Of a stretch of 64,000 bases of DNA, positions 6,135 to 15,423 are shown in pieces. Location of the stretch: positions 172,286 through 236,285 of the forward strand of contig JAFDXR010000001.1 of the NCBI GenBank assembly GCA_018267825.1. Reading direction: 5' to 3'. The stretch is from Bacteroidota bacterium. Its GTDB lineage: Bacteria; Bacteroidota; Bacteroidia; B-17B0; Aurantibacillaceae. The notes under the pieces are model-generated. The model was not told the DNA's origin and searched no databases. It saw nothing but the letters and a program-made list of their open reading frames with translations. Made by a program: the position numbers and the translations under genes. Numbering within the stretch: position 1 is the stretch's first letter; each line of letters opens with the position of its first letter.

Positions 6135-6142
6135 TAATTTTG
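6135..6142 (+). promoter_or_regulatory. TAATTTTG -7 box overlapping the first possible start
   Basis: An exact TAnnTTTG match whose last three bases are the TTG at 6140-6142 that would be the first start codon of the following giant gene. If this is the promoter, transcription begins near 6148 and the TTG is not translated. Confidence 0.4.
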
Positions 6143-9100
6143 TTAAAGAAGCAAGCCCATATCCAAGTCTGTTTTAACATAAATATAACCTGCAAAGTCT
6201 TTTTGCTTCTTCTGTTCATGCTTTTTGGTAGCCTCAAAGCATGGTCTCAGCCGAAAAATGAAGATGATCTCAAGAAAGAAGCTCTCAAAGCCTTTGAAGA
6301 AGAAGACTATGCAAAAGCATATAAATATTATGCCCAGCTTGTTTCTCTATACCCCAAAGACCCTGAATTCAACTATCACCTGGGGGTTTGTATGCTATAT
6401 ACCGAACCCGATAAGAAAAAACCTTTTTCATACCTCCAGATAGCGACCAACAATCCGAAAGATGCACCGAAAGACGCCAAATTTTACCTGGCCAAAGCCT
6501 ATCATTACAATTACCGTTTCGACGATGCACTTAAACTCTACAACGAGTATAAACAAACAGCCGGAGCTGCCAATGTCAAAAAACTGCAGGTCGACAGGGA
6601 GATCGACAATTGCAAAAACGGGAAACGTTTACTCTCCAACCTTTCGGACCTGGTAATTATTGAAAAAAAACAGCTCAACGAAAGTGATTATTTCCGTGCT
6701 TATAACCTGTCCGATATCGGTGGTAAACTGCTTGTAAAACCGGATGATTTCAAATCGGGCCAGGATAAAAAGAAAAAAGAAAAGTCGGTGATATACCTTC
6801 CCAACAATGCACAAAGGGTGTATTACTCGAGCTATGGCGAAAACGGCAGCAATGGCCGTGACATTTACTTTGTAAACCGATTGCCCAATGGCAGCTGGAG
6901 TAAACCTCAAGCCATGCCTGCCACGATTAATACTGAATACGACGAAGATTATCCGTTTCTGCATCCCAATGGCCATACGCTGTATTTTGCATCCAAAGGA
7001 CACAACAGTATGGGTGGTTACGATATTTTCAAATCTACCTTCGACGACCAGACACAGACCTGGAGCAAGCCTGTGAATCTCGATTTCCCGATTAACTCGC
7101 CCGATGACGATATTCTCTTCGTAACAGACTCTCTCGAAAAAACAGCCTACTTCTCCACCGGCCGCTACAGCCCATATGGCAAACTCGATGTTCTTAAAAT
7201 CAGTACCGAGCGCCGCCCGATGGATATTGCCGTATTGAAAGGAACAGTTGTAAAAGAAAATGTAAATCAGAGTGTCAAGTCTAAAATCACAGTAAAGAAT
7301 ATTGCCAATGGCGAGATTGTAGGAACCTACCAGGCCCAGGACAATGGCGACTATTACATGGAACTGCCCAATGGCGGTAAATTTATTTTTACGGTCGAAA
7401 CACCCGGCCTCCCAACCCAATCGGACGGTGTACAGATGCCAATCGCCTACTCCCTGAAGCCTTATAAACAGGTAATTTCATACGAAAATAAAGTATTGAA
7501 GATCATCAACTATTTCGATGGACAGATCTCAGACGACAACTACTCTATGTATCTTGATCTCATTGAAAAGAAAGCCAGGCTGGAGGTTAATGAAAATGAA
7601 CCGTACAACAACAATCTGCTGAATAACAATGGTAACCAGGGCGATCCGAAAAACAATCTGAATGCCGTAAATACAAACAATCCGAGTGTCGTTAATGAAA
7701 ACACCGGAAACCCTCCGGGCAGTACGACAAATCCGAAAAATGTAAGCAATGAAGATTTATTGAATATTGCCAGGGAAGATCAGAAAGAAGCTACCGAAGA
7801 AGCCGCCAAGCTTAAACAGGAAGCCCAGGATGCCATGGGACTTGCCACTCAGAAAAACCAGGAAGCTACCGAAAAACAAAAACTGGCCGATGAAGCATTA
7901 ACAGCCGCCAACTCCATTACCGATGTAGCCAAAAAGAACGAAGAGCTTTCGAAAGCCAACGATTTAAAAGATGAAGCCAAGATCGCCAAAGATGTTGCCA
8001 ATACAGCCCTGAACCTTGCTAAAAAACTGGAGGTGGATGCCGATATGCAACAGAAGGAAGCTGACCTCTCGGCACAGTACGTGAAAGAACTGGAAGCCGT
8101 TACCAAAAACAAAAACAATAAGGACGCGCTCAACAAACTGGAACAGCTGCAAAAACAACTCGACGATTTATCCAAACAGAAAAATCAGTCGGATGAATTA
8201 TTCTCTTCTCTGAAAGCAGAAACAGAACTGAAACAAAATGAACTGAAAAAAGAAGAACAGAAGAACGACCTTATTACCAACGACATCAATACCCTGAAAA
8301 CCGAGGTCAAAGATTTACAGAATGACCTTGCCAATGAAAAGGATGCCGGTTTAAAAGAAAACATCAATGCCCAGATCCGTGAACTGAATACGGATATAGA
8401 ATCGAAAAACAAGGAAATAGCTTCCAATAATCAGAAAATAGATCAGCTCAAAAATGAATTGGAAGGGGTAACGAAAGAGCTGGAAATAGCTGCTAAAATC
8501 CTGAACGAGAAACCCGATAACCTGGCATCAAACACAAACACCCCGGGCGAAAATGCTTTTGAAGGGGCTGTGGATACCAAAACTGCAACAACCAACACTC
8601 CTGTTACCAACGAAACAACACCCGGTAATTACAATGATCTCGCAAAAAAATACGAATCTATTACTGCTGCCAATACCAGCAACGAGACCAGTTCGGATCC
8701 GGGCGAACTCATTAAACAGAATGATGCCCTTACCAATTACAATAAAGACATAGAAGCACTCATCGCAAAAGACAAAGCAACTCTTTCGAAAAGTAAGAAT
8801 GCCGATGAGAAGAAAAACCTGAACAACGACATTAAACAACTTGAAAAGCAAAAAAGCAGCAATACAACACTGATCGCCGCAAACAATACAAAAATCAAGC
8901 AACTTGAAAATGCCATTGCCTCCAATACTGCCTCTGCGGTGAGCAGCGAAAGCACAAGCCCCGTCAGTACCAACACCCTGGAGCCGACGGCCACAACCAA
9001 TACTACTGCCATTGCGAACAATACACTTACGTCCAACCCAACAGAAACAACCACTATAAATACCGGCACCAATGATGTAACCACACTTCTCAGTGAAGCT

Positions 9101-12100
9101 GAAACCCTGAATAACCAGGCTGCTGATATCCGTAAACAGGCAGGTTCCAAAACCGGTGATGAACAAATCAGCCTGATAAAACAAGCCACAGATCTGGAGA
9201 AGCAAGCCATCACAAAAAAACTGCAGGCCAACGAAATTTCCGTTCAGAAGAACAACAGCCAGTTTGAAACCAACAATCAGAATATTGAAGCCCTGTTGAA
9301 ACTCAATGGCAGTAAAACAAACGATGATATTTCGCAGGCCAATATGCTGGTGACCGAAGCTGAAATTAATTTCAAGCAGGCCAGGGATATTCATAAGGAA
9401 GCCGATAACTACCCTACAGATGCCTCCAAACTTGGCGGATACAGCAATGCCGAAGACAAAGAGCAGGAAGCGCTCCTGAAACAAAAGAAAGCCATTGAGC
9501 TGCTCATGAAGAACAATCCGGGCTACACGCTTATTCAGAATACCAGCCAGCCGGCCAATACAACCGACATCAATAACGAACAGGTTAAGATTGCTACCGA
9601 ACAAAGCAACACATACCTGGCTCAGAGCAAAAAGAACCAGGATGAAATAAAACAGAAGGATCGGCTGATTGCTTCGGATCCCGCTTTCAACACAAATCAG
9701 GAAGCCAAAACGCTGAAAACAAAATCGGATAATCTGAATAAGGAAGCCACTGCTCTGGTGAGCAAAGCCAATAACACCGGCAACCCCTTAGAAAAAGCAA
9801 AACTACTGGCCGAAGCCAATCAGAAAGAGCAGGAAGCCCTCAACACCCTGAACGAAGCCGGGAATATTCTTTCTAAAGGTAATAATCCTGTAGCTGTGAA
9901 TCCGGGAAATAATAATGGTGGAAATAATGGAGGCAACAACAATGATCCCGGAAATACAAATGCAGCCCGGACAAACACAACTACCAATACAAACAGCAAC
10001 CCTGAAAATACAGCCGGTACCAATACGCTCTCAGCCAACACAAACACGCTGAGTACTGCTACCGAAAGTCTGAGTTCAAATAATCCGGGCGAAACAAATG
10101 CATCCGCCAATACGGGGACCAGTCATGCAGACGAAGCCAATACACTGAAAACAACGCTCAATGACCCGAATGAACAGGCACTTACAGGCTTTTCAAATTA
10201 TGTGAATACAGAAGCCATTCAGTTAAAAGATCAGGCTTATGAAAAAATAAATGAAGCCTTATCAGAAGATAAAACCCTGAGCGGGCAGCTTGACCAGGTA
10301 GCCGCTACTACAGGCACCATCTCACCCGGCGCATCGCAGATCGAGAGTCTGACTACCGATGCCGAGTCGCTCAACAAACAGGCTTATACACTCCGGAAAG
10401 AAGCTTCCGCTAAAACAGGAGACGAAAAAGATAAGCTTATCGCGCAGGCAAAAGACCTGGAAGCGAAAGCCATTGCCAAAAAACTGGAAGCTTCCAAAAT
10501 ACAGCGCGATGTTAATGTCAGCGGTCTCGAAAGCAATGCAAAAGCCCTGGAGGAATTAGCACAGCTTACCAAAACCAAAAATGTCGCTGAAAAATCGTCG
10601 ATCGAAAAACTGATCAACGAAGCTAACAACGCCATGAAACAGGCCCGTAACCTGCGCGAAGAGGCCAATTCTTACTCAACAGATGCGGCAAAACTCGGTG
10701 GTTATAACAATGCCGAAGAAAAAGAAGCTGAAGCACTTGCCAAACAACAAAAAGCCATTGGCCTTTATAAAAAATATGCACCGGATTATGTGGTCAACCA
10801 ACCTGTTACCAGCGACGGATTTGAAGATATTAAATCATCTGTAGATTATAATACACAGGCTCACGTCAATGGTTTAATGCTCCTTACACAGGCAAATGAA
10901 AAAGAATACAGAAGTCGTTTCCTTTCATTACCGGTAAATCTCTCCGTTGACCAGCAGGCCCTGAAAACCAAAGCACAGGCTTCTTACAAACAATCGCAGA
11001 ACCTGACAGCCCAGGCAAACCAGGCAAAAGATCTTGCCAAAAAGAAAACGCTTCTGACCGAAGCCTCTAAAAGCGGGCAGGAAGCTATTAACTTCCTGAA
11101 CCAGATTTCAGGCGGATCACCTCTGGCTGTAAATACGGCCACCGAAACCGGTAACCCGGTTAATACTTCGGGCAATAATGACGGAGGTACAGGCAACAAT
11201 CCTAACAACACTGGTAACAACAATGGTGGCAATAATAGCGGAGGCAACAACTCCAATAATCCTCTGGTAAACAATGGAGGGAATAATGCCAATAATGGGG
11301 AAAATAATACCGGGAATACCAATGGTAATAATGGTAATAACCCGGTAAACAATGGTGGTAACGACACAAATGCCGGAACAAATCCGGTGACAAACAATGG
11401 TGGCAATACAAACGGCGGCAACACAAATGCAGGTAATCCGAACCGTACCGGAAATACAAGCCCGGCTAATAACAATAACCCTGGCAATACAAGTAATGAA
11501 CCATTGGTGACATTGAAAACCAAAGGCATCGAAATAAAAAACAACAGTGCATACAGCAGCAGCAAACCTATTCCGATTGATGAAAAAATACAGGATGGCC
11601 TCGTATTCAAAGTGCAGGTCGGTGCGTTCAAAAATCCATTACCAAACGATCAGTTCAAAGGTTTAAGTCCGGTTGTGGGCCAAACCACACCTAGCGGTTA
11701 CATACGCTACATGGCAGGTAACTTTGATGAATTTACGGACGCCAATGCTGTTAAAAATGATTTACGCCGCCTGGGTTACAGCGATGCATTTGTGGTTGCC
11801 TATTACAATGGTCAGCGTATCACCATTAACGAAGCTATTGGTAAACTGAAAGAAAGCGGAAAAACGGTGGATGTAGCGGCAACCAATACCAGTGCCGGCA
11901 TTACCGAAAACAGTAATGTACCGCGCAGCAATTTCCCGGTGAACCCCGGCACAGCTGCTGTAGCCAATACAACAGATTCACAGCCGGCAGAGATTACAAA
12001 AGAGCTGGAACAAACAAACGGTTTATTATATACCATACAGATCGGTGTATTTTCAAAACAGGCTACGCGCTCTCAACTGCATTTCCTGAAACCGATTTAC

Positions 12101-12772
12101 ACCGAAAAATTACCAAGCGGACTTTACCGCTACACAGCCGGTATATACAACCAAAGCTCGCGCCTGCTCGACGATAAACGCCGTGTGGTCGATCTCGGTA
12201 TAAAAGATGCTTTTGTTTCCGTTTATTACAATGCCAAACGCATTGCTTATGCCGATGCTCAGAAAATACAAAGCGAAAACAATAACCTGAAACTGGAAAC
12301 TGAAAACCCGATTGTATTCCCGGATGGCGGCAACACCACAACAGTTACATCACCTGCCAATACAAATACCAGCACTCCTGTTGTAAGCAATACAACAACA
12401 CCGGTTACAAACAATACTCCAACTGTAACACCCTTCAGCAATGGAGTTACCAAAGCACCCGAACCTACTGCCGAAAATGGCGTGAAAGTGGGTGATGAAG
12501 GCATTTCATTTAAAGTACAGATCGGGGCTTATAAAAACCAGGTACCAAATGACGTGGCTTCCAAATTCCTGAATATTAAAACATGGCCGGTGGAAAGCAA
12601 AGCCATTAATGGACTCTTCATATACACAATCGGCAACTTTGTAGATGCTAAATTCGCTAAAACACTTAAAGAAGAAGCTGTTTCTCTGGGTATTACAGAT
12701 GCTTTCGTAACTGTTTACAAAGATGGTAAGAAACTCTACGGCGCCGAGGCCTCCCAGTACCTGAACCGGTAA
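6140..12772 (+). CDS. Giant TPR-PD40-coiled-coil-SPOR envelope protein
   Basis: About 2,200 residues, exported (hydrophobic VFLLLLFMLFGSLKAWSQ). Order seen: TPR-like helices (about 40-130); WD40-like PD40 propeller repeats (about 215-355, with DEDYPFLHPNGHTLYFAS and GGYDIF); a carboxypeptidase-regulatory-like beta domain (about 363-424); an Ala/Glu/Lys/Gln coiled coil (about 538-790); a ~265-residue coiled-coil unit present twice (about 983-1247 and 1402-1664); Asn/Gly/Thr linkers after each copy; and three SPOR-like domains (about 1822-1900, 1963-2042 and 2124-2210; VQVGAF, IQIGVF, VQIGAY). TPR-PD40-CRD is the front of PorE-type T9SS proteins, where OmpA follows; here SPOR-like modules, known to bind denuded glycan, take that place. 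Attachment of an envelope complex to peptidoglycan is inference. The start is unresolved: TTG 6140 overlaps a promoter box and the first ATG (6218) shortens the signal peptide. Confidence 0.88.
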   Translation: MLKKQAHIQVCFNINITCKVFLLLLFMLFGSLKAWSQPKNEDDLKKEALKAFEEEDYAKAYKYYAQLVSLYPKDPEFNYHLGVCMLYTEPDKKKPFSYLQIATNNPKDAPKDAKFYLAKAYHYNYRFDDALKLYNEYKQTAGAANVKKLQVDREIDNCKNGKRLLSNLSDLVIIEKKQLNESDYFRAYNLSDIGGKLLVKPDDFKSGQDKKKKEKSVIYLPNNAQRVYYSSYGENGSNGRDIYFVNRLPNGSWSKPQAMPATINTEYDEDYPFLHPNGHTLYFASKGHNSMGGYDIFKSTFDDQTQTWSKPVNLDFPINSPDDDILFVTDSLEKTAYFSTGRYSPYGKLDVLKISTERRPMDIAVLKGTVVKENVNQSVKSKITVKNIANGEIVGTYQAQDNGDYYMELPNGGKFIFTVETPGLPTQSDGVQMPIAYSLKPYKQVISYENKVLKIINYFDGQISDDNYSMYLDLIEKKARLEVNENEPYNNNLLNNNGNQGDPKNNLNAVNTNNPSVVNENTGNPPGSTTNPKNVSNEDLLNIAREDQKEATEEAAKLKQEAQDAMGLATQKNQEATEKQKLADEALTAANSITDVAKKNEELSKANDLKDEAKIAKDVANTALNLAKKLEVDADMQQKEADLSAQYVKELEAVTKNKNNKDALNKLEQLQKQLDDLSKQKNQSDELFSSLKAETELKQNELKKEEQKNDLITNDINTLKTEVKDLQNDLANEKDAGLKENINAQIRELNTDIESKNKEIASNNQKIDQLKNELEGVTKELEIAAKILNEKPDNLASNTNTPGENAFEGAVDTKTATTNTPVTNETTPGNYNDLAKKYESITAANTSNETSSDPGELIKQNDALTNYNKDIEALIAKDKATLSKSKNADEKKNLNNDIKQLEKQKSSNTTLIAANNTKIKQLENAIASNTASAVSSESTSPVSTNTLEPTATTNTTAIANNTLTSNPTETTTINTGTNDVTTLLSEAETLNNQAADIRKQAGSKTGDEQISLIKQATDLEKQAITKKLQANEISVQKNNSQFETNNQNIEALLKLNGSKTNDDISQANMLVTEAEINFKQARDIHKEADNYPTDASKLGGYSNAEDKEQEALLKQKKAIELLMKNNPGYTLIQNTSQPANTTDINNEQVKIATEQSNTYLAQSKKNQDEIKQKDRLIASDPAFNTNQEAKTLKTKSDNLNKEATALVSKANNTGNPLEKAKLLAEANQKEQEALNTLNEAGNILSKGNNPVAVNPGNNNGGNNGGNNNDPGNTNAARTNTTTNTNSNPENTAGTNTLSANTNTLSTATESLSSNNPGETNASANTGTSHADEANTLKTTLNDPNEQALTGFSNYVNTEAIQLKDQAYEKINEALSEDKTLSGQLDQVAATTGTISPGASQIESLTTDAESLNKQAYTLRKEASAKTGDEKDKLIAQAKDLEAKAIAKKLEASKIQRDVNVSGLESNAKALEELAQLTKTKNVAEKSSIEKLINEANNAMKQARNLREEANSYSTDAAKLGGYNNAEEKEAEALAKQQKAIGLYKKYAPDYVVNQPVTSDGFEDIKSSVDYNTQAHVNGLMLLTQANEKEYRSRFLSLPVNLSVDQQALKTKAQASYKQSQNLTAQANQAKDLAKKKTLLTEASKSGQEAINFLNQISGGSPLAVNTATETGNPVNTSGNNDGGTGNNPNNTGNNNGGNNSGGNNSNNPLVNNGGNNANNGENNTGNTNGNNGNNPVNNGGNDTNAGTNPVTNNGGNTNGGNTNAGNPNRTGNTSPANNNNPGNTSNEPLVTLKTKGIEIKNNSAYSSSKPIPIDEKIQDGLVFKVQVGAFKNPLPNDQFKGLSPVVGQTTPSGYIRYMAGNFDEFTDANAVKNDLRRLGYSDAFVVAYYNGQRITINEAIGKLKESGKTVDVAATNTSAGITENSNVPRSNFPVNPGTAAVANTTDSQPAEITKELEQTNGLLYTIQIGVFSKQATRSQLHFLKPIYTEKLPSGLYRYTAGIYNQSSRLLDDKRRVVDLGIKDAFVSVYYNAKRIAYADAQKIQSENNNLKLETENPIVFPDGGNTTTVTSPANTNTSTPVVSNTTTPVTNNTPTVTPFSNGVTKAPEPTAENGVKVGDEGISFKVQIGAYKNQVPNDVASKFLNIKTWPVESKAINGLFIYTIGNFVDAKFAKTLKEEAVSLGITDAFVTVYKDGKKLYGAEASQYLNR
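9085..9880 (+). repeat. Internal duplicated coiled-coil unit, copy 1
   Basis: It encodes a ~265-residue segment beginning SEAETLNNQAADIRKQA and containing YPTDASKLGGYSNAEDKE. The same order of motifs recurs at 10342-11130. The copies are diverged, so this is an old duplication within the gene. Confidence 0.75.
10342..11130 (+). repeat. Internal duplicated coiled-coil unit, copy 2
   Basis: It encodes the second copy, beginning TDAESLNKQAYTLRKEA and containing YSTDAAKLGGYNNAEEKE. As in copy 1, it is followed by a long Asn/Gly-rich linker. Confidence 0.75.
11133..11515 (+). repeat. Asn/Gly-rich low-complexity tract
   Basis: About 127 codons made almost only of Asn, Gly, Thr and Pro with irregular NNGGN units, built from aat/ggt/aac/ggc codons. 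It is in frame, probably a flexible linker between the second coiled-coil unit and the SPOR-like domains, and likely to vary in length between strains. Confidence 0.8.
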
Positions 12773-13135: not shown

Positions 13136-13936
13136 ATGAAAAAAATTCTGATTCCGATCATTACGCTTGCTGTTCTGTCAAGCGCCTGCGAAAAAAACGC
13201 GATTACCGGCCGTCGTTCTCTTAACCTCGTTCCCGAGTCTGAAATGATGACGATGAGTTTCTCGCAATACGATCAGTTTTTAACGGAGAACAAACCTTTA
13301 CCGGATACCGATAAAAACGTACAGCTTGTAAGAAGTGTGGGAAAGAAAATTCAGGCCGCTGTTGAAAAGTATTATAATGACAAGGGCCTCAGCAGCCAGC
13401 TGGCAGGTTACCAATGGACTTTTAACGTTGTGCAGAGTGCTGAAGTGAACGCCTGGTGTATGCCCGGAGGAAAGGTGGTTGTATACACCGGATTACTGCC
13501 TGTTACACAGGATGAGCCGAGCCTGGCTGTTGTGATGGGCCATGAAATTGCGCACGCTGTTGCCCGTCATGGCAACGAACGCATGAGCCAGGGTCTTCTC
13601 GTTCAGTATGGGGGCGAAGCGCTCTCATCTATGCTGCAAACAAAACCACAGGTTACGCAGGAATTATTCAAACAATCTTTTGGTATTGGTTCACAACTTG
13701 GCCTGCTCAAATTCAGTCGTACCGATGAAACCGAAGCTGATAAAATGGGCGTTGTATTTATGGCCCTTGCGGGTTACAATCCGGAAGCAGCCCTCCCCTT
13801 CTGGGAACGCATGGCCCAGGCCAGCAGCGGTCAAAAACCACCGGAAATCCTGAGCACACACCCGAGTGATGAAACCCGTATTGCCACATTAAAGGCATTC
13901 ATGCCCGAGGCAAAAAAATATTACACAGGAAAATAA
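13136..13936 (+). CDS. M48 family metallopeptidase, lipoprotein
   Basis: Predicted zinc metalloprotease tethered to an envelope membrane. The N-terminus is a lipoprotein signal with lipobox LSSAC (Cys18). The M48 core includes HEIAHAVARH (HExxH at 136-140) and a third ligand Glu200 in TEADKMGVVFMALAGY, so the active site is complete. Its 266 residues fit the short LoiP/Oma1-like group rather than BepA, which carries extra TPRs. Family knowledge points to quality control of envelope proteins. It lies 9 nt after clpS, pairing a cytoplasmic and an envelope proteolysis factor in one likely transcript. A hairpin terminator follows. Confidence 0.92.
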   Translation: MKKILIPIITLAVLSSACEKNAITGRRSLNLVPESEMMTMSFSQYDQFLTENKPLPDTDKNVQLVRSVGKKIQAAVEKYYNDKGLSSQLAGYQWTFNVVQSAEVNAWCMPGGKVVVYTGLLPVTQDEPSLAVVMGHEIAHAVARHGNERMSQGLLVQYGGEALSSMLQTKPQVTQELFKQSFGIGSQLGLLKFSRTDETEADKMGVVFMALAGYNPEAALPFWERMAQASSGQKPPEILSTHPSDETRIATLKAFMPEAKKYYTGK

Positions 13937-13961
13937 TCTCCTCATCTGATCTTTTTAAATA

Positions 13962-13994
13962 AAACGCTTTCCAACCGGGAAGCGTTTCTTTTTT
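13962..13994 (+). terminator. Intrinsic terminator after clpS-M48
   Basis: AAACGCTT pairs with AAGCGTTT (13962-13987), with further C/G pairs toward the loop, followed by a T-run with one interrupting C. It sits 25 nt past the M48 stop. Confidence 0.8.
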
Positions 13995-13999
13995 ATAGA

Positions 14000-14432
14000 T
14001 TACATATGCCATCGATTACCAAACAATCATCAACGAACACAACATGAGAGTTATGATTCAATTTTCATCCTTTCCTGCTGCCTATTATTAAAGTTATCTC
14101 AAACAAAACTTTCTTCTTCGGTATAGACAAAAACAACTGTCATGCTGAGAAGCAATGCATACAAAGGTTTCAAGGCATTGTTGCGACAGTAAACAAAATA
14201 AATATTTTGCAAGCAACAGCCGTTTCACGGGTAAATAACATGAATATATTGTTCAATCATTCTTACTTAACCACTTTATTCACTTAACTCAATAACAAAA
14301 ACATGAGTTTAATCAACAAATAAATTAGATGAATAACAAATATATGCGTTCACCATAAAGCGTTTGTCATCGCTGATTTTGAGTCCAAATCTTATGCATA
14401 TTTGCAATATAAAACATCAAAAAAATTAAAAC
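14000..14432. other. AT-rich non-coding gap before aqpZ leader
   Basis: Together with the leader this is a gap of nearly 600 nt without a credible protein gene; only tiny open frames are present. An imperfect hairpin lies at 14136-14190 (ACTGTC/GACAGT outside, CAATGC/GCATTG inside). A near-consensus promoter box CATATTTG lies at 14397-14404, about 30 nt before the nine-codon frame. No tRNA or repeat array was seen. The region could host a small RNA or an upstream regulatory site for aqpZ. Confidence 0.5.
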
Positions 14433-14462
14433 ATGAGCGTTCTTTTTGGACTGTTGTCGTAA
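14433..14462 (+). CDS. Possible nine-residue leader peptide before aqpZ
   Basis: ATG 14433 opens a nine-codon frame (MSVLFGLLS) with TAA at 14460-14462. The ATG follows an A-rich stretch, the context typical of Bacteroidota start sites. The frame covers the 5' arm of the hairpin at 14435-14503 and its stop falls at the edge of the hairpin loop, so a translating ribosome would open the structure. This is the layout of a leader peptide, but such a short frame could occur by chance. Confidence 0.3.
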   Translation: MSVLFGLLS

Positions 14463-14510
14463 CTCAAAACACGACTCGGGAGTGCAGTCCGGATTGAACG
14501 CTCTCTTTTT
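14435..14510 (+). ncRNA. Structured leader or attenuator-like hairpin upstream of aqpZ
   Basis: Three nested stems fit one hairpin: GAGCGTTC/GAACGCTC (14435-14442 with 14496-14503), GGACTG/CAGTCC (14448-14453 with 14485-14490) and GTCGT/ACGAC (14456-14460 with 14471-14475), all perfect. A TCTTTTT run (14504-14510) follows at once, as in an intrinsic terminator, only 22 nt before the aqpZ ATG. It could be an attenuator or regulatory leader of aqpZ, or the end of an upstream small RNA. I do not recognise a known riboswitch class. Confidence 0.55.
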
Positions 14511-14532
14511 AAACTCCTAACCTCTTTTCAGT

Positions 14533-15228
14533 ATGCAGAACGATAATTTTAAAAAGTACTGTGCCGAATTATTTGGCACAATGGTTCTTGTTTTAATGGG
14601 TTGTGGCAGTGCAGTCATAGCCGGTAACCATATCGGTTTTATGGGTATCTCGCTCGCGTTTGGTCTTGCTGTTGTTTCAATGGCTTATACGATTGGTCCT
14701 ATTTCGGGCTGTCATATCAATCCGGCTGTAACAATAGCTATGCTGGCTTTGGGAAAAATAAATTCACAAGATGCTCTTCTTTATATATTATTTCAATGTA
14801 TCGGTGCTATTATCGGAACAGGCATTTTATTTATGATTTTGCTCGGACGACCTGAATATAAAATAAGTATCGACGGACTCGGTCAAAACGGATTTGATAG
14901 CGGCTATATTGATGGTTACAATCTTATTTCTGCACTTACCTCTGAAATTATATTCACGGCTTTATTTCTTGTTGTGATTTTTGCCACAACAAGTGCAGAG
15001 AATACTGCATTTGCGGGGCTTGTTATTGGTTTATGCCTGGTACTGATTCACCTCGTTGGCATCCCTGTTACAGGTGTTTCCGTAAATCCTGCCAGAAGCA
15101 TTGGTCCGGCTATATTTATAGGGGGGAAAGCGCTATCCCAGTTATGGGTATATATTATCGGCCCTGTTGTTGGTGGCCTTTTGGGAGCTCTTATCTGGAA
15201 AGTTCTTACCCCGTCTAAAACTCCATAA
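14533..15228 (+). CDS. aqpZ: Aquaporin Z, MIP family water channel
   Basis: Inner-membrane channel for rapid water flow. The 231-residue product has six hydrophobic helices and the two half-helix NPA motifs: HINPAVT (Asn63) and SVNPARS (Asn185). The selectivity-filter positions match water-specific AqpZ rather than glycerol facilitators: Phe43, His173 in LIHLVGIP, the Thr in PVTGVS and Arg188 after the second NPA. Length matches E. coli AqpZ. It appears monocistronic, with an unusually structured upstream region and terminator-like hairpins behind it. The leader hairpin suggests control at the RNA level; that is inference. Confidence 0.94.
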   Translation: MQNDNFKKYCAELFGTMVLVLMGCGSAVIAGNHIGFMGISLAFGLAVVSMAYTIGPISGCHINPAVTIAMLALGKINSQDALLYILFQCIGAIIGTGILFMILLGRPEYKISIDGLGQNGFDSGYIDGYNLISALTSEIIFTALFLVVIFATTSAENTAFAGLVIGLCLVLIHLVGIPVTGVSVNPARSIGPAIFIGGKALSQLWVYIIGPVVGGLLGALIWKVLTPSKTP

Positions 15229-15355: not shown

Positions 15356-15369
15356 TGTATGTACCCATT

Positions 15370-15401
15370 AAAAAGCCCCGGAAGTTTTTCCGGGGCTTTT
15401 T
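15370..15401. terminator. Bidirectional terminator between aqpZ and acyl-CoA dehydrogenase
   Basis: AAAAAGCCCCGGAA pairs with TTCCGGGGCTTTTT around GTTT. The A and T flanks make it work for both converging transcripts. Confidence 0.9.
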
Positions 15402-15423
15402 GTATAATTTGTAAACCGAAGAA

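Follow-up and report, generated by a model that had tools for sequence, protein, structure and literature searches.

The window, that is, the whole stretch of DNA that was analysed (64,000 nucleotides), comes from a Bacteroidota bacterium. It contains an aquaporin gene, aqpZ, which stands alone between a gene for an M48 peptidase and a convergent gene for an acyl-CoA dehydrogenase, and which is preceded by a hairpin of three nested stems (P1 to P3) with a U-rich tail. The features of the locus are listed below.

13136–13936, + strand: gene for an M48 peptidase, preceding aqpZ
13962–13987, + strand: the M48 gene's own terminator
14397–14404, + strand: best partial −7 box, CATATTTG, 5/6 to TAnnTTTG, with a candidate start near 14411
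14433–14462, + strand: nine-codon frame ATGAGCGTTCTTTTTGGACTGTTGTCGTAA (MSVLFGLLS*), covering the 5′ arms of the hairpin; a candidate only
14435–14442 and 14496–14503, + strand: basal stem P1, 8 bp, GAGCGTTC / GAACGCTC, exact complement, also paired in the fold
14448–14453 and 14485–14490, + strand: stem P2, 6 bp, GGACTG / CAGTCC, perfect complement, also paired in the fold
14456–14460 and 14471–14475, + strand: stem P3, 5 bp, GTCGT / ACGAC, perfect complement, also paired in the fold
14504–14510, + strand: U-rich tail TCTTTTT, abutting P1, a feature of intrinsic terminators
14533–15228, + strand: aqpZ, 231 amino acids, MIP family, water-channel type
15369–15402, + strand: terminator downstream of aqpZ, common to the convergent acyl-CoA dehydrogenase gene

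The product of aqpZ matches the MIP family (PF00230, 6e-53) as well as AqpZ structures, and it matches the NCBIfam aquaporin Z model at 7.8e-73, slightly under the curated cut-off. The gene is rare in the family: only 16 of the 86 other genomes yield a match at 1e-30, these matches are mostly distant, and the best of them is 57% identical. Among 395 sampled genomes of the class, the closest relative shows 60% identity, and the best one in the genome-contig collection about 58%. Judging from this rarity and from the distance of the closest relatives, this lineage alone probably acquired or retained aqpZ. In the relatives, the M48 gene is conserved beside ClpS, and neither aqpZ nor the acyl-CoA dehydrogenase gene follows it within the 1.5 kb examined, so that the edges of any insertion are not visible. 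The same genome encodes a second MIP-family channel (L003; G000:C32:320990-321625) that is 40% identical to AqpZ and lacks a similar leader hairpin; channels of this type (37–43% identical) are the ones found in most of the family genomes with a match. Elsewhere in the window, a 2210-codon open frame (6140–12772) has weak N-terminal matches to TPR and PD40, long stretches that are rich in Asn/Thr/Gly or coiled, and repeated C-terminal segments that are alike.

The hairpin was initially annotated as three nested stems of 8, 6 and 5 bp that end in a T-run 22 nt before the aqpZ ATG (14533); all these parts are present and the stems are perfect. In the predicted fold, P2 is lengthened to about 10 bp via U-G and U-A pairs, and nucleotides 14476–14484, on the 3′ side of the P3 3′ arm, are unpaired. 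The segment 14425–14520 folds at −33.5 kcal/mol, compared with −17.7 ± 2.9 kcal/mol for shuffled sequences (z = −5.4), and none of the 200 shuffles folds as well. The hairpin alone (14435–14503) accounts for −30.4 kcal/mol and thus provides the stable, G+C-containing stem of an intrinsic terminator, with the U-tract TCTTTTT directly 3′ of it. The raw energy is not extreme, given that 56 of the 7988 96-nt segments on the + strand of the 64-kb window reach −33 kcal/mol or lower; accordingly, the claim rests on the z-score and the position. When the growing transcript is folded stepwise, P3 forms before P2 and P2 before P1, and the structure is finished at 14503, just ahead of the U-tract. A search of the window against Rfam gives no match above the gathering score, the best sub-threshold hit being a microRNA precursor family (E = 0.34). 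No Rfam family is matched by the element itself, in agreement with the initial impression that it does not represent a recognised riboswitch class.

Within the genome, the hairpin stands out among gene leaders. The comparison set consists of 246 leaders, each 110 nt or longer, from 0.8 Mb of the same genome, delimited by crude gene calls. By z-score the aqpZ leader takes second place among the 246, and no other terminator-like hairpin within 80 nt of a start codon is as stable as the one it contains; of the remaining strong leader hairpins in these 0.8 Mb, many sit at the end of the preceding gene. The usual terminators of this genome consist of a hairpin and a U-tract. With a terminator score of the published type, the aqpZ hairpin obtains a borderline −2.9, between the values for the neighbouring terminators (4.9 and −5.1). 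Two further sites in this genome carry conspicuous repeats. A strong terminator-like hairpin, GAGAACAGGGTTGGGGGACCCTGTTCTC followed by TTTTTT, ends 14 nt upstream of the ATG that opens a frame of 205 aa with no Pfam match (L197:12477-13094, − strand; G000:C32:192477-193094), a crude gene call in a divergent gap. A long, near-perfect inverted repeat, TAGGTATAAATACCTA ... TAGGTATTTATACCTA, is found in L172 upstream of position 14440 (G000:C11:94440), about 60–120 nt upstream of a gene whose product has a phage tail collar domain, and resembles an operator-type palindrome.

The gap between the M48 gene and aqpZ spans 596 nt, of which 445 nt (13988–14434) are A+T-rich. Because the M48 gene is already terminated at 13962–13987, the leader hairpin is not its terminator, and this assignment was rejected. 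The genome uses the Bacteroidota −7 box: its leaders contain 97 copies of TAnnTTTG where 27 would be expected, and most of these copies lie 10–60 nt ahead of the ATG. A full match to this box is absent from the + strand of the aqpZ upstream stretch, the + strand of 13937–14545 contains no promoter-like match with normal spacing, and no promoter site fits between the hairpin and the aqpZ ATG. The best partial box, CATATTTG, located 36 nt before the leader ATG at 14433 and 136 nt before the aqpZ ATG, is weak, with a spacing of 15 to the upstream TTG and no enrichment of CAnnTTTG in the genome. A convincing promoter 5′ of the hairpin is likewise not found, which counts against the reading of the element as a leader terminator. 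Nevertheless, since the M48 gene has its own terminator and there is no room for a promoter after the hairpin, the aqpZ transcript probably includes the hairpin in its 5′ leader, the start site being only a candidate. Farther upstream, a second inverted repeat (14137–14192; ACTGTC...GACAGT around GCAATGC...GCATTGT) is overlapped by a 16-codon frame; its fold is not significant (z = −1.7).

The hairpin was not found upstream of any of the inspected aqpZ relatives (at most 60% protein identity). The leaders folded or searched are those of about 80 genome-contig relatives and of the family and class relatives, and most of the contig loci were also searched with a covariance model; among the loci listed, the leaders of the Bacteroidota aqpZ relatives are short and A+T-rich and lack such a hairpin. 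In the 86 other genomes of the family, BLAST and the covariance model give no credible match to the element, the one weak model match (E = 0.037) covering only 30 bases. Neither method detects the element in about 380 genomes sampled across the class, and there is no second copy in the approximately 460 other genomes searched. The model was built from one sequence and the genome search was run with strict filters, so that distant forms could be missed. As no relative carries the element, there is no covariation support for it. A repeat or mobile element was considered and rejected, given that the element is single-copy in the genome by both BLAST and the covariance model; phages, plasmids and viral contigs also contain no match.

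To our knowledge, little is established on the control of bacterial aquaporin genes. The closest parallel is the Bacillus subtilis glpFK operon, in which glpF encodes a MIP-family protein and a conditional intrinsic terminator in the 5′ UTR is controlled by GlpP (PMC9604022). Here, too, a terminator hairpin lies in the leader of a gene for a MIP-family channel, but AqpZ belongs to the water-specific branch. GlpP antitermination of the aqpZ leader was rejected because the genome has no match to PF04309, the GlpP family. The suggestion that attenuation would be new for an aquaporin thus holds in the narrow sense and is too broad for the MIP family, where glpF already has a conditional leader terminator; no attenuator described for aqpZ was found in the open-access literature, which is weak evidence of absence. 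Genome scans have catalogued uncharacterised premature 5′ terminators, and leader terminators with uncharacterised sensing parts are common (PMC2965389). The aqpZ element resembles these in comprising a hairpin and a U-tract upstream of a start codon, with an uncharacterised, fast-evolving sensing part; however, that study drew on terminators that recur before the same gene family in several species, whereas the aqpZ element is seen in no other species examined. With attenuators of the trp/his type, the leader shares a short frame that overlaps the hairpin arms, but it lacks a regulatory codon run and a significant, mutually exclusive antiterminator. Translational attenuators of the erm/tetQ type enclose the downstream start region in their hairpin, whereas the aqpZ hairpin extends only to 14503, leaving 29 nt to the ATG, and the start region lies outside it. 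Short, unvalidated leader frames reminiscent of leader peptides, similar to the short frame in the aqpZ leader, have been noted in the long 5′ UTRs of a member of the same phylum, Bacteroides thetaiotaomicron; the available text of that study describes none for an aquaporin (PMC7366714).

There is about an even chance that aqpZ carries in its 5′ leader a strong intrinsic-terminator hairpin specific to this lineage, which would act as a conditional or partial brake. RNA polymerase would start upstream, possibly near 14411, and transcribe the hairpin and the U-tract; some or all transcripts would end near 14510 (approximately 14504–14512), and the water channel would be made from read-through transcripts only. 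The analysis establishes the hairpin with its significance and tail, its position between the terminator of the M48 gene and aqpZ, and the lack of space for a promoter behind it; that it terminates transcription and that read-through is regulated we infer.

Several other readings have to be weighed against this one. The initial annotation proposed translation-coupled attenuation, in which formation of the terminator would depend on whether the nine-codon frame is translated. The frame indeed lies over the 5′ arm, with its stop at the edge of the apical loop, and the claimed A-rich start context is real: 14 of the 20 nucleotides before the ATG at 14433 are A, a level reached by about 2% of shuffles, compared with 4 of 20 at the start of aqpZ itself. 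The partial −7 box lies at the distance from this ATG that is usual in the genome, and a ribosome initiating there would mask the 5′ arm of P1 and block this stem, so that a weak hairpin at 14478–14505 becomes possible. Frames of this kind are common, however, with nine ATG frames of at least nine codons upstream of aqpZ against about five expected, and MSVLFGLLS contains neither a run of one amino acid nor regulatory codons. A ribosome that has reached the stop codon would no longer keep P1 from forming again; there is no significant antiterminator fold, the only alternative hairpin, 14478–14505, being at chance level (−8 kcal/mol, z = −0.6) and itself adjoining the U-tract; and the frame shows no conservation. 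A test of the leader ATG in which the upstream flank was shuffled (0.76) was not relied on: the T before the hairpin's G is retained in the shuffles, which biases the outcome. What stands of the proposal is a terminator-type hairpin in the aqpZ leader. The coupling is possible but not favoured, given the ordinary frame without regulatory codons, the formation of P1 with the ribosome on the stop and the weakness of the alternative hairpin, and control by a leader peptide appears improbable.

It is likewise unlikely that a separate transcript, encoding an sRNA or a small protein, is made from 13988–14434 and has the hairpin as its 3′ terminator, with aqpZ expressed by read-through. Such a transcript could be accommodated in the long intergenic stretch, which contains several short frames (up to 27 codons), and it is known that sRNA terminators can be mistaken for attenuators (PMC2965389); yet this stretch has no Rfam match, no promoter-like site on the + strand and, aside from two short A+T-rich matches, no conserved counterpart in the 86 family genomes, and even then the aqpZ transcript would need to pass the hairpin. 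A stem that protects the 5′ end of the mRNA, or a DNA-level palindrome serving as an operator or bidirectional terminator, in either case without regulated termination, has a low probability. Together with the A and T tracts that flank them, the arms make up an inverted repeat of 28 nt, the minus strand of the element also scores with the hairpin model, and the U-tract is able to pair with the upstream A-tract, which counts against a leader terminator inasmuch as a plain bidirectional terminator fits too. Against this, the U-tract right behind P1 is the signature of a terminator, and an operator could do without three stems in register about a loop of 10 nt. Least probable is a small ligand-binding riboswitch, for which the long, asymmetric apical part and a possible four-pair pseudoknot between the loop (ACTC, 14462–14465) and the bulge (GAGT, 14480–14483) could be cited. 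With a loop of 10 nt and a bulge of 9 nt, a 4-base match could readily arise by chance (about 1 in 6–8 by our own estimate), and the lack of both an Rfam match and a second copy elsewhere also speaks against it.

For the leader terminator, the nine-codon frame is the only visible candidate sensor, and the simplest candidate regulator would be a ribosome that initiates at the A-rich ATG, with its footprint over the 5′ arm of P1. Control of read-through by such initiation is speculative and has a rather small chance of being correct; constitutive damping, or control by some protein or RNA, has at least the same likelihood. Because no examined relative carries the hairpin, the element is a plausible, fairly ordinary candidate rather than a proven new switch. 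By itself, it changes little, leader terminators being common and the candidate element being confined to one lineage; if the leader terminator is real, aqpZ would be regulated after the start of transcription. A more far-reaching version, to which we assign a distinctly small probability, is a recently evolved attenuator of a water-specific aquaporin, in which initiation at the nine-codon frame, or a ligand of the apical loop and bulge, would set the level of read-through. If true, such an attenuator would tie water permeability to the translation state or to osmotic conditions.
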